Part shown: positions 5,969-62,732 of the stretch, piece after piece
How positions within the stretch are numbered: the first letter of the stretch is position 1
Layout of the letters: each line of letters starts with the position of its first letter
Source: Pseudomonas azadiae
GTDB taxonomy: Bacteria; Pseudomonadota; Gammaproteobacteria; Pseudomonadales; Pseudomonadaceae
NCBI RefSeq assembly: GCF_019145355.1
Contig: NZ_JAHSTY010000001.1
Coordinates: 496,001 to 560,000, forward strand
Length of the DNA: 64,000 nt
Reading direction: 5' to 3'
Notes under the pieces: generated by a model
The model's input: the letters and a program-made list of their open reading frames with translations, nothing else
Told to the model about the DNA's origin: nothing
Databases searched by the model: none
Program-made: the position numbers and the translations under genes

Positions 5969-6062
5969 TTGACCGAGTACACCGGACCTATCACCGGTCG
6001 GCTCGAAGGCCGCCGCGCTCTTGCTTTTGATCTGCAATCGCCCCGTCAACCACGCTGGCCGG

Positions 6063-6166
6063 AATTCGACAGTGATTTGGGGGGTAAACCGGCAGGGATG
6101 CCGGTTTAGCCGCCCACGCGCCATGGATGGCGCGTAGGCGGCGGCCCCCCAAATCAGTGTCGAATT
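6063..6166. repeat. Compound palindrome with three stems
   Basis: The outer arms of 22 bases (6063-6084 and 6145-6166) are inverted copies with one or two mismatches. They enclose two smaller perfect or near-perfect hairpins: aaaccggcagggatgccggttt at 6086-6107, and acgcgccatggatggcgcgt at 6116-6135. The arrangement would form a three-way or cruciform-like structure in single-stranded DNA or RNA. Confidence 0.8.
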
Positions 6167-6321
6167 ACGGGCATGCCGAGCCTAGGCGAGGCACCGAGTG
6201 GTGGGGCGAGGACTTTTTGGTTACTTTTTGCTGGGCCGGCATTCCGGTCCTTCAAAAAGTGACCCGCTGTAAGAGCGGAACCGCCAGCCGCCGTGACCTA
6301 AATAACGGATATGTACACAGT

Positions 6322-6551: not shown

Positions 6552-7007
6552 ATGGAATTACGAATCAACCAAAAAGCCTATCAGGTCGACGCCGATGCCG
6601 ACACGCCATTGCTGTGGGTGATCCGCGACGACCTGGGCCTGACCGGCACCAAGTTCGGCTGCGGCCTGGCCCAGTGCGGCGCCTGTTCGGTGCTGGTGGA
6701 CGGCAATGTGGTGCGCTCGTGCGTCACGCCGGTCGCCGGCGTGATCGGGCGGGAGATCACTACCATCGAGGCGATTGAAGCCGATGCAGTGGGCAAGCGC
6801 GTGGTCGCGGCCTGGGTCGAGCGCCAGGTGGCGCAATGCGGTTACTGTCAGTCCGGGCAGGTGATGGCGGCCACTGCCCTGCTCAAGCACACCCCCGCGC
6901 CGACCGATGCGCAGATCGAAGCGGCGATGATCAACCTGTGCCGTTGCGGCACTTATAACGCGATTCGCACGGCCGTCCACGACTTGGCCAAGCAGGAGGG
7001 CGTCTGA
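6552..7007 (+). CDS. (2Fe-2S)-binding subunit of a xanthine-oxidase-family molybdenum hydroxylase
   Basis: This 151-residue subunit carries two [2Fe-2S] clusters that pass electrons from the molybdenum site. The N-terminal plant-ferredoxin-like half has FGCGLAQCGACSV followed by RSC. The C-terminal helical half has QCGYCQSGQV and LCRCGTYNAIR. Length and motifs match the IorA / aldehyde oxidase small-subunit family. ATG at 6552 follows a GCAGGTGAG ribosome binding site. The stop overlaps the next start (TGATG), so translation is coupled to the large subunit. There is no separate FAD subunit, and electrons probably go to the cytochrome c encoded third. Substrate could be an aldehyde or an N-heterocycle; the sequence does not decide. 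Confidence 0.93.
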   Translation: MELRINQKAYQVDADADTPLLWVIRDDLGLTGTKFGCGLAQCGACSVLVDGNVVRSCVTPVAGVIGREITTIEAIEADAVGKRVVAAWVERQVAQCGYCQSGQVMAATALLKHTPAPTDAQIEAAMINLCRCGTYNAIRTAVHDLAKQEGV

Positions 7008-60919: not shown

Positions 60920-61054
60920 ATGTTGCAACTCACCCACACTCCGCTTTGCCCTGCTGCCAGCGCCCCGCGCTCGGTGTCGGCTACCCGCGTGAACGGTTCG
61001 AGCGCAGCTGTCAGCTTTTATTTTGGGTATTGGTTTAGCCACTGGCGCGCCTGA
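60920..61054 (+). CDS. Aromatic leader peptide 1 (44 residues)
   Basis: A 44-codon frame with a good ribosome binding site (TTGGAGAC) ends in SFYFGYWFSHWRA and a TGA. Three Phe, two Tyr and two Trp codons fall within the last twelve residues. A strong intrinsic terminator follows 52 bases after the stop. This is the architecture of an amino-acid attenuator like those before trp and phe operons: ribosomes starved of charged aromatic tRNAs should stall on the control codons and let transcription continue into the DAHP synthase gene. The first thirty residues look unconstrained. I infer the role from layout; I do not know of a named homologue. Confidence 0.8.
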   Translation: MLQLTHTPLCPAASAPRSVSATRVNGSSAAVSFYFGYWFSHWRA

Positions 61055-61106
61055 TACCTGAAATCGGCGCCCACTGCTCAAGGGGTCGCCTACCAGAGAA
61101 ATCTAA

Positions 61107-61143
61107 CCCCCGGTCGGCTCCCCGACCGGGGGTTTTGTTTTTT
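61107..61143 (+). terminator. Attenuator terminator before DAHP synthase
   Basis: A perfect 11-bp stem (CCCCCGGTCGG/CCGACCGGGGG at 61107-61117 and 61122-61132, 4-base loop) is followed by TTTTGTTTTTT. A competing pairing, GGGGT at 61082-61086 with ACCCC at 61106-61110, would use the left stem and could serve as antiterminator. A third pair, GGCGC near 61044 with GCGCC near 61065, could be the 1:2 hairpin. Confidence 0.88.
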
Positions 61144-61184
61144 CAGGCCTCATCTTTTTGCAAGAACACTTAAAGGACCTACAC

Positions 61185-61337
61185 ATGAACTACGCCACCT
61201 ATTACCGCTACGACATCTGCACCGCATGGCGATTTAGCCAGCTCCGCTCGGGACAGCCTGCCGCCTCCGATCGGTCACCTATTGGTGGCAAGCCAACACA
61301 CGTCGCCAACCCGGCCAATTGTCGAACACCCCAGTAG
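61185..61337 (+). CDS. Tyrosine-rich leader peptide 2 (50 residues)
   Basis: A 50-codon frame begins MNYATYYRYDICTAWRF, with four Tyr codons in the first nine, then Trp and Phe. It has a strong ribosome binding site (TAAAGGACC) and ends 48 bases before the DAHP synthase start. The sequence GGCAAGC (61287-61293), inside this frame, can pair with GCTTGCC (61364-61370), which directly abuts the CAGGAAG ribosome binding site of the enzyme gene. Translation through or stalling in this frame could therefore change access to that site. Both the coding status and the mechanism are inferred from layout. Confidence 0.6.
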   Translation: MNYATYYRYDICTAWRFSQLRSGQPAASDRSPIGGKPTHVANPANCRTPQ

Positions 61338-61385
61338 GGCCAAGCGCGCGGGACCAGCCCGCCGCTTGCCCAGGAAGCCTTGAAT

Positions 61386-62468
61386 ATGAACTCCGCCACC
61401 GCCGCTCTGCCGATCCACACCCTGACCAGCGCCAATGAAGCCCTGACCCAGCGCTTGCCCAGCGCCCTCGAACTCAAGCATCAGTTGCCCCTCAGCCCGT
61501 TCCTCAACGAACAAGTCCATGCCCATCGCCAAGCCGTGCACGCCATTCTCCATGGCGAAGACTCGCGTTTACTGGTAATCGTCGGTCCGTGCTCGATCCA
61601 CGATCCGAAATCGGCGATGGAATACGCGCGCAACCTGAAGAAGCTCGCGCTTGAAGTCAGCGACCAGATGCTGCTGGTGATCCGCGCCTATGTCGAAAAA
61701 CCGCGCACCACCATCGGCTGGAAAGGCCTGGCCTACGACCCGCACCTGGATGGCAGCGACGACATGGCCGCCGGCCTCACCCTGTCCCGCGAGCTGATGC
61801 GCGAAATGCTGCGCCTGGGCCTGCCGGTCGCCACCGAGCTGCTGCAACCCATGGCCGCCGGTTACTTCGATGACCTGCTCAGTTGGGTTGCGATTGGTGC
61901 ACGCACCACCGAATCGCAAATCCACCGCGAAATGGCCAGCGGCCTGGGCGTGCCCGTGGGCTTCAAGAATGGTACCGACGGCGGCGTGGCGATTGCTTGT
62001 GACGCGATGCGTTCGGCCGCCCACCCGCACCGCCACTTCGGTGTCGACAGCCAGGGCCACCCGGCGATCATCCAGACCCCGGGCAACCCGGACACCCACC
62101 TGGTGCTGCGCGGCGGCCACCGCGGGCCGAACTACGACGCGCATAACGTGGCGCAGGTCAAGCAAGATCTGGCCAAGTCCAAGGTGGCAGCGCGCCTCAT
62201 GGTCGATTGCAGCCATGCCAACAGCGGCAAAGACCCGTTGCGTCAACCGACGGTGTTCAACGAGGTACTGGAGCAACGACTACAGGGTGACACGGCGCTG
62301 ATCGGCATGATGCTCGAAAGTCATCTGTTCGAAGGCTGCCAACCGTTGAGCGCATCCATGAAATACGGCGTGTCCGTGACCGATGGTTGCCTGGGCTGGA
62401 ATGCCACCGAGCAGTTGTTGCGCAGTGCGGCCGAGCGTTTGCGCAAACAGCACAAACCAACCGACTGA
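61386..62468 (+). CDS. Class I 3-deoxy-7-phosphoheptulonate (DAHP) synthase
   Basis: This 360-residue enzyme condenses phosphoenolpyruvate and erythrose 4-phosphate, the first step of aromatic amino acid synthesis. AroF/G/H-family marks are LLVIVGPCSIHDPKSAMEYA, VIRAYVEKPRTTIGWKGL, WVAIGARTTESQIHREMASGL, VGFKNGTDG, LRGGHRGPNYD and MVDCSHANSGKDP. ATG 61386 has CAGGAAG upstream; a TTG at 61380 is less likely. Which aromatic acid inhibits it cannot be told by eye. Two aromatic-rich leader peptides and an attenuator precede it, so it is probably repressed when aromatic amino acids are plentiful. aroQ of the same pathway is in the window but far away. Confidence 0.96.
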   Translation: MNSATAALPIHTLTSANEALTQRLPSALELKHQLPLSPFLNEQVHAHRQAVHAILHGEDSRLLVIVGPCSIHDPKSAMEYARNLKKLALEVSDQMLLVIRAYVEKPRTTIGWKGLAYDPHLDGSDDMAAGLTLSRELMREMLRLGLPVATELLQPMAAGYFDDLLSWVAIGARTTESQIHREMASGLGVPVGFKNGTDGGVAIACDAMRSAAHPHRHFGVDSQGHPAIIQTPGNPDTHLVLRGGHRGPNYDAHNVAQVKQDLAKSKVAARLMVDCSHANSGKDPLRQPTVFNEVLEQRLQGDTALIGMMLESHLFEGCQPLSASMKYGVSVTDGCLGWNATEQLLRSAAERLRKQHKPTD

Positions 62469-62480
62469 TGAAGATCAAAA

Positions 62481-62584
62481 TGTGGGAGCGGCGGTGCGAC
62501 GATTCGACTTGCTCGCGAAAGCGGTGTATCAGTGACAGATGTACTGACAGACCCACCGCCTTCGCGAGCAAGCCCGCTCCCACA
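62481..62584. repeat. REPIN with an interrupted left arm
   Basis: The right arm ttcgcgagcaagcccgctcccaca (62561-62584) is complete. The left arm reads tgtgggagcg, then about 18 extra bases (gcggtgcgacgattcgac), then ttgctcgcgaa. The left side therefore has an insertion relative to the family at 2701 and 5874. It separates the DAHP synthase and aldo/keto reductase genes; no gene is seen at 62469-62732. Confidence 0.85.
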
Positions 62585-62732
62585 TTTGGACTGTGTGCGA
62601 TTCAGTACAAAGCCTGCGCACCTGAAGATTTGTGTCCTGAGGTAAAAAGTCCTTTTCGAATTCGGCGGTTTTTCCTAAGGAACGACGGGCGGATACTCGA
62701 CTCCATTGTTCACAACCCTTCAGGAGTTACTG

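Follow-up and report, generated by a model that had tools for sequence, protein, structure and literature searches.

Why would a single biosynthetic gene stand behind two successive short reading frames, both rich in codons for aromatic amino acids? The question is raised by the DAHP synthase gene aroF of Pseudomonas azadiae, contained in the 64,000-nt stretch of DNA analysed here (hereafter, the window). An initial annotation of this stretch had placed two aromatic leaders upstream of aroF: a first one (leader 1) followed by a strong terminator and assigned to transcription, and a second one (leader 2) beyond the terminator, perhaps acting on translation. All elements that it described were found at or near the positions it gave (Table 1).

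Table 1. Features of the aroF upstream region (coordinates of the window).
Feature	Position	Strand	Evidence or remark
Leader 1 ORF, 44 aa, ATG 60920 to TGA 61054	60920..61054	+	Ends FYFGYWFSHWRA
Leader 1 control codons TAT TGG TTT	61028-61036	+	
P15 (Rfam RF00627): leader 1 end, alternative hairpins, terminator	61012..61132	+	112.9 bits versus gathering cut-off 70, E 2.6e-22
Candidate pairing of GCGCC (61047-61051) with GGCGC (61066-61070), freeing GGGGTCGCC	61047..61070	+	Predicted folds
Anti-antiterminator hairpin GGCGCCC/GGGTCGCC	61066..61090	+	Rfam consensus structure and folds
Candidate antiterminator, GGGGT (61082-61086) with ACCCC (61106-61110) of the terminator 5' arm	61082..61110	+	Predicted folds
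Intrinsic terminator and T tract	61105..61146	+	13-pair stem, 61105-61134
Leader 2 Shine-Dalgarno AAAGGA	61172..61177	+	AGGA/GAGGA before the start in most aligned rows
Leader 2 ORF, 50 aa, TAG stop, starts MNYATYYRY	61185..61337	+	Internal indels in frame, outside ones not
TGGCGATTT, Trp-Arg-Phe codons	61227..61235	+	149/150 loci
Predicted pseudoknot helix S1, 61244-61251 with 61267-61274	61244..61274	+	One internal mismatch in the window
Predicted pseudoknot helix S2, 61259-61265 (S1 loop) with 61284-61290	61259..61290	+	
Conserved in-frame CGAACAC near leader 2 end	61323..61329	+	
Hairpin from the leader 2 stop codon to the aroF Shine-Dalgarno	61337..61371	+	3' end abuts the Shine-Dalgarno
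aroF Shine-Dalgarno AGGAA	61372..61376	+	
DAHP synthase, class I (aroF-type)	61386..62468	+	TIGR00034 446 bits, PF00793

The two frames are conserved beyond Pseudomonas. A pattern search recovered both leaders jointly in 151 of 166 records ranging from Pseudomonas to the Halomonas family; these records overlap (L152 is the window itself, and some genomes occur twice), and among the 15 that the pattern missed are Salinicola loci lacking leader 2, truncated loci and failures of the pattern (e.g., L077 and L102). Conservation of leader 2 extends over Pseudomonas, Stutzerimonas and Halopseudomonas and reaches into the Halomonas family, where the DNA pattern TGGCGATTTA was found in 54 of 70 additional loci (30 best and 40 picked, of 121 genomes) and a looser pattern added none. 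Among the other 16, L231 carries a variant of the site, L251, L253 and L256 possess a second leader of another kind, and L212 lies at a contig edge; the leader-2 site was found in none of the eleven remaining loci (nine examined twice; L239 and L240 once). Several Halomonas-family loci carry leader 1 alone. In seven Salinicola-like loci (L237-L241, L244 and L247), leader 1 lies nearer to aroF than elsewhere and leader 2 was not found. Family f36 was taken as the Halomonas family because L187 matches L075 at 100%. The clade labels used below (aeruginosa-, mendocina-, stutzeri-, putida-, syringae- and fluorescens-like) are those of this analysis, with leader type among the criteria.

Leader 1 and the P15 RNA

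The ATG of leader 1 is preceded at 7 nt by GGAG. The aromatic codons at its Tyr-Trp-Phe site are nearly constant, with TAT in 144 and TTT in 145 of 148 loci, and a terminator was detected by rule in 141 of 148. In the structure of the matching Rfam family, RF00627, the control codons (GGGTATTGG) pair with CCTGATACC around and after the stop, and the GGCGCCC/GGGTCGCC hairpin and the terminator follow. Classical transcription attenuators with leader peptides (trp, phe and the like) share this combination of control codons, alternative hairpins and terminator. It has a counterpart in Corynebacterium glutamicum, where a leader with Phe-Tyr-Phe precedes the DAHP synthase gene aroF; in the excerpt available, that system has one leader, and no pseudoknot is mentioned (PMC4046766).

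We folded the RNA left free ahead of a ribosome position by position along leader 1 in 141 of 150 loci, seven loci without a rule-defined terminator and others without the codon pattern being excluded. The predicted probability that the 5' arm of the terminator is already paired averaged 0.48 when the free RNA began 9-12 nt past the start of the Trp codon, 0.31-0.38 when it began 30-6 nt before that codon, and 0.25 at 18 nt and 0.28-0.32 at 21-36 nt after it; a second peak (0.46-0.50) lay at 39-45 nt. This second peak, and the level of 0.31-0.38 reached with no ribosome close by, weigh against the model. A ribosome shields about 13 nt beyond the first base of its A-site codon, and if this figure applies, the first peak corresponds to a delay at TAT or TGG of leader 1. 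The leader 1 stop of the window, 21 nt past the Trp codon, falls in the zone of low pairing.

By its anatomy, leader 1 is very likely a classical transcription attenuator, in agreement with the transcriptional role first proposed for it. RF00627 is catalogued in Rfam as an sRNA, P15, which would likely be the terminated RNA of this attenuator.

Leader 2, the Trp-Arg-Phe nonamer and a predicted pseudoknot

Leader 2 is recognizable as a reading frame by its codons and its spacing. Codons for Phe, Tyr and Trp make up 31% (mean) of those before Trp-Arg-Phe (WRF), versus 6.7% in 17 long ORFs of the window. In 86 of 99 long-type loci the stop lies at a distance of 108 from TGG, and at 96-111 in the others; CGAACA stands in the leader-2 frame in all 99 long-type and in 35 of 38 short-type loci; the distance from the stop to aroF is spread over all residues modulo 3 (38/25/36 in the 99 long-type loci). 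In Halomonas-family leader 2, an in-frame CGATGT or CGAAGT recurs about 75 nt past TGG, and the CGAACA of Pseudomonas comes later.

The peptide itself was rejected as a functional product: in the variable part of leader 2, the three codon positions differ alike (0.47/0.41/0.44). As the peptide looks unconstrained there, the act of translation seems to be what is kept. None of 82 relatives of leader 2 carries a Pfam domain, and those with names are hypothetical proteins of Pseudomonas; a search of Rfam over leader 2 gave no match even at E up to 1. Taken as a whole, we consider it highly probable that leader 2 is a translated control ORF with a structured checkpoint.

The most constant part of this frame is TGGCGATTT, at which no pairwise difference was seen at any codon position in 41 rows, versus 0.3-0.45 differences on both flanks. 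The lone exception in Table 1 (L064) arose when the script took the wrong ORF, the true site being TGGCGCTTTAGC. The 150 loci were chosen by a protein pattern demanding WRF[ST], and the amino acids W-R-F are therefore conserved partly by choice, whereas the codons are not. CGA accounts for 6% of Arg codons and TTT for 28% of Phe codons; rarity was rejected as the cause of CGA in the nonamer, since AGA and AGG are rarer. The Halomonas-family locus L231 reads TGGCGATATA, in which a Tyr codon (TAT) replaces that for Phe, and this fits a need for an aromatic codon at that position.

Behind the nonamer and still within leader 2, two interleaved helices are predicted to form an H-type pseudoknot. 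Numbered from TGG, S1 joins 17-24 with 40-47, and S2 joins the S1 loop (32-38) with 57-63. In 44 distinct rows, covariation was 0.194 versus 0.132 when shuffled (0/500) and at most 0.090 when the structure was slid along the alignment, and 87.3% of pseudoknot cells pair versus at most 47.1% when slid. In the count of double changes, a slide of +3 equals the structure in these rows (8 pairs and 35 cells versus 8 and 36) and exceeds it in the 27 ungapped rows (7 pairs and 15 cells versus 5 and 11); covariation in the latter was 0.145 versus 0.099 shuffled (0/500) and 0.119 at the +3 slide. Seven diverged rows (L068, L213, L243, L246, L252, L254 and L255) were left out of alignment A2 and judged singly. 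Three of these, all from the Halomonas family, display replacement of whole helices: L252 has a 12-pair S1 and an S2 of GCGCCG/CGGCGC, L254 an 11-pair S1 and an S2 of GAGTGCC/GGCGCTC, and L243 TGTCACC/GGTGACG.

Of 57 distinct rows (55 Halomonas-family and two Pseudomonas), a simple rule finds both S1 and S2 contiguous in 55, L070 being one of the two misses, and 56 of the 57 reach p < 0.01 versus shuffles of their own letters. Only two of 48 long-type Pseudomonas rows pass the contiguous rule because their S1 carries an internal mismatch; 27 of the 48 are at p < 0.01. The pseudoknot was found in none of 28 short-type rows. Covariation and whole-helix replacement thus support the predicted pseudoknot. 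A model of it (R1) finds one site in the genome of the window and sites in 12 of 293 genomes of the order under stricter filters, all in this genus and f36. The knot therefore seems restricted to aroF and to the groups named, and the idea of an element before other genes was rejected; matches of a pattern scan in 12 of 46 genomes of the G333 family look like chance. Two other readings of the region were set aside: a resemblance of GGTGGCA to a T-box, as this strand pairs and covaries as S2, and (by eye) a pairing of GTTCG in the S1 5' arm with CGAAC, which is constant even where GTTCG has become GCTCG or GATCG.

The pseudoknot begins about 4-9 nt past the TTT codon of the nonamer. By the geometry of the ribosome, which fixes the mRNA entry relative to the P site, the knot would therefore lie at the entry when CGA occupies the P site.

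A possible connection between leader 2 and the aroF start

The hairpin running from the leader-2 stop to the aroF Shine-Dalgarno had a mean z of -3.4 in 74 distinct long-type sequences, 64 of them below -1.5, and a mean z of -3.4 in 31 short-type sequences (mononucleotide shuffles in both). The initial annotation had proposed a different contact, between GGCAAGC in leader 2 and GCTTGCC beside the aroF Shine-Dalgarno. Both strands exist (61287-61293 and 61364-61370), and the helix is present in just five of 48 non-redundant rows, the window included; it was rejected as the second-stage pairing. The GGCAAGC strand overlaps the 3' strand of S2, GGTGGC(A), whose partner is the upstream TGCCGCC within leader 2.

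A second possible contact involves the nonamer. Left unconstrained, RNAalifold joins (GA)CTGGCG in leader 2 to CGCCAG(A)TC, immediately ahead of the aroF ATG, in three sets, the aeruginosa-, mendocina- and stutzeri-like ones (10, 6 and 5 rows); it does not pick this pairing in the Halopseudomonas, 'oth', putida-, syringae- and fluorescens-like sets. In L031, nine contiguous pairs are formed with AAATCGCCATG. Two-strand folds of the segment from -3 to 9 relative to TGG against the start region gave 5.2 expected pairs in the short set, 5.3 in the syringae-like (5 rows), 3.1 in the putida-like and 1.2 in the fluorescens-like set, versus 0.0-0.3 for an upstream control segment. A locus's own pairs beat cross-species pairs in the short group only (p = 0.0015), and were no better in the long (p = 0.99) and halo (p = 0.72) groups or in all loci (p = 0.07). 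Versus shuffled start regions, p < 0.05 was reached in 5 of 18 short and 3 of 16 putida-like cases, and in none of 43 distinct fluorescens-type pairs (the clade of the window) or 10 Halomonas-family pairs; controls reach this level too, namely the upstream arm (15 of 51 fluorescens-like, 7 of 27 short) and the coding start (11 of 47 fluorescens-like, 4 of 11 Halomonas-family). In a duplex scan of the short set, the TGG window had the lowest energy with the aroF start region (-12.8); in the long set, other GC-rich windows came near (-10 to -11), and own and cross-species duplexes were at most about 1 kcal apart. We therefore find the pairing of the codons with the start region credible for one group of clades, whereas the clade of the window gives it no support; it cannot explain the invariance of TGGCGATTT.

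Accessibility of the aroF Shine-Dalgarno was flat across ribosome positions in leader 2 in the long (45 used of 99), short (38) and halo (12) sets, in folds that ignore pseudoknots and tertiary contacts; these folds showed no switching of the site by ribosome position. The pairing first proposed for the translational role of leader 2 found no support. We consider leader 2 plausible as a translation-level control, which would then act through other pairings.

A possible two-stage control and the alternatives

We consider it quite possible, at somewhat under an even chance, that this one DAHP synthase is under two-stage control by charged aromatic tRNAs. At stage 1, a ribosome slowed at the Tyr-Trp-Phe codons of leader 1 would allow GCGCC:GGCGC to form, and this would free GGGGTCGCC, blocking the terminator; with no delay, transcription would end and leave the short RNA known as P15. 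At stage 2, after RNA polymerase has passed, leader 2 would be translated, with its Tyr cluster and Trp-Arg-Phe codons as a second checkpoint, so placed that a ribosome would run into the pseudoknot base when CGA occupies its P site and TTT its A site. A ribosome waiting at this point would cover TGGCGATTT. This strand could pair with the aroF start region in the aeruginosa-, mendocina- and stutzeri-like sets, and perhaps the putida- and syringae-like ones, so that a delay would free the aroF start. Anatomy and comparison support the predicted stage 1, and comparison of sequences supports the frame, pseudoknot, Shine-Dalgarno hairpin and aromatic codons of stage 2; stalling, the direction of the effect and any codon:start pairing in the window's own clade are what we infer. 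That leader 2 frees aroF translation when ribosomes wait at Trp or Phe is possible, and we propose it with reserve. Only tentatively do we combine these steps into one mRNA checked twice for the same amino acids, by an attenuator yielding P15 and then by a translated leader 2 that gates DAHP synthase translation, with a pseudoknot abutting Trp-Arg-Phe.

The closest precedent for leader 2 is the LEU element upstream of leuA in Actinobacteria, which in the excerpt available has a leader with leucine codons, a pseudoknot, a base stem of codons with the Shine-Dalgarno and no conserved unpaired nucleotides (PMC1262725). Leader 2 likewise has control codons in a leader ORF and the predicted pseudoknot (not found in the 28 short-type rows); a stem of codons with the start region has no support in the clade of the window (0/43), so leader 2 was not filed as a LEU element, and a nearly invariant nonamer is present. 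The LEU element differs further in phylum, gene and amino acid, and no preceding transcription attenuator appears in the available part of its description; the authors doubt translation of its leader, as leader mutants did not fit classical attenuation, and favour a binding protein (PMC1262725). Two leader ORFs also precede ermB; as far as the available excerpt goes, they overlap, and the system is drug induced with one translational stage (PMC8274638). The arrangement, for which the initial annotation knew no described parallel, has some precedent: the LEU element has the same plan (PMC1262725, in excerpt) and P15 is in Rfam, while neither a link of P15 to aroF or attenuation nor a description of this two-leader aroF system was found in the open-access literature, among the matches listed.

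If one mRNA is indeed checked twice, the arrangement would date back at least to the divergence of Pseudomonadaceae and Halomonadaceae. The orphan Pseudomonas sRNA P15 gains a likely identity. A pseudoknot inside a translated leader would be kept by compensatory change across two families, and serial attenuation of transcription and then perhaps of translation could be tested directly at the entry step of aromatic synthesis. A pseudoknot with a leader both at leuA in Actinobacteria and at aroF in Gammaproteobacteria would point to a general means of sensing the supply of amino acids that has received little study.

It is unlikely that leader 1 alone senses amino acids and that leader 2 is a coupling or reinitiation uORF, which hands ribosomes on to aroF and protects the transcript from Rho while the pseudoknot sets the speed. 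Rho sites are C-rich and G-poor, as is the region from the pseudoknot to the stop (C 0.37, G 0.18), but the first 90 nt of aroF are equally C-rich. Reinitiation at leader ORFs close to a gene has been proposed (PMC4833913, in the excerpt available), and the leader-2 stop of some Halomonas-family loci overlaps or nears the aroF start (by eye, e.g., L075 and L078); in long-type Pseudomonas, however, it lies 43-53 nt away. Nor does coupling need so high a share of aromatic codons before WRF or near-invariant W-R-F codons.

We find it improbable that the pseudoknot is an aptamer (riboswitch) or a protein site to which the aromatic ORF is secondary. A compact conserved fold does stand upstream of a biosynthetic gene, and a protein is what the LEU authors favour at their element. 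However, the loops vary, the helix sequence turns over wholly with the fold retained, a kind of pattern used by those authors against small-molecule binding (PMC1262725, in the part available), and variation is lowest in a stretch of codons read in frame.

The Rfam entry for P15 is an sRNA gene, and P15 might accordingly act in trans, its position before aroF being incidental. This is highly improbable. A search for RF00627 detected it in 182 of 199 genus genomes (181 above the cut-off) and in 15 of 194 genomes of an order sample that contains this genus. In the other 17 genus genomes, the DAHP synthase closest to the window's aroF reaches just 50-54% identity, as the paralogue does, so this aroF seems absent there too and the element goes with this isozyme. 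The second DAHP synthase in the genome of the window is 52% identical to aroF, and a rule-based scan found no aromatic leader there, nor at any of 17 paralogous loci (two G123 pieces lay outside this sample). Moreover, the last part of leader 1, codons and stop included, lies within P15. Two matches to RF00627 per genome were seen in G016, G065 and G094.

Finally, a programmed frameshift signal made of the Trp-Arg-Phe site and the pseudoknot is extremely improbable and was rejected: the pseudoknot does begin close behind TTT and TTTA is kept, but no in-frame X XXY YYZ site was seen by eye, the 0 frame is maintained up to the leader-2 stop, +1 stops are scattered (e.g., -83, -5, +1 and +50 relative to aroF), and the immediate -1 TAG of TTTAGC loci is absent from 41 TTTACC loci, so that neither a slippery site nor a conserved shifted frame was seen.

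Two further elements were observed in the window. Downstream of aroF (about 62480-62585) lies an inverted repeat, GTGGGAGCGG...CCGCTCCCAC, which resembles Pseudomonas REP elements. At 6048-6181 on the + strand, a TwoAYGGAY RNA (RF01731, 65.5 bits) stands upstream of a two-gene set starting at 6552, which by eye encodes a 151-aa protein like a 2Fe-2S subunit and a 743-aa protein like a molybdopterin dehydrogenase.
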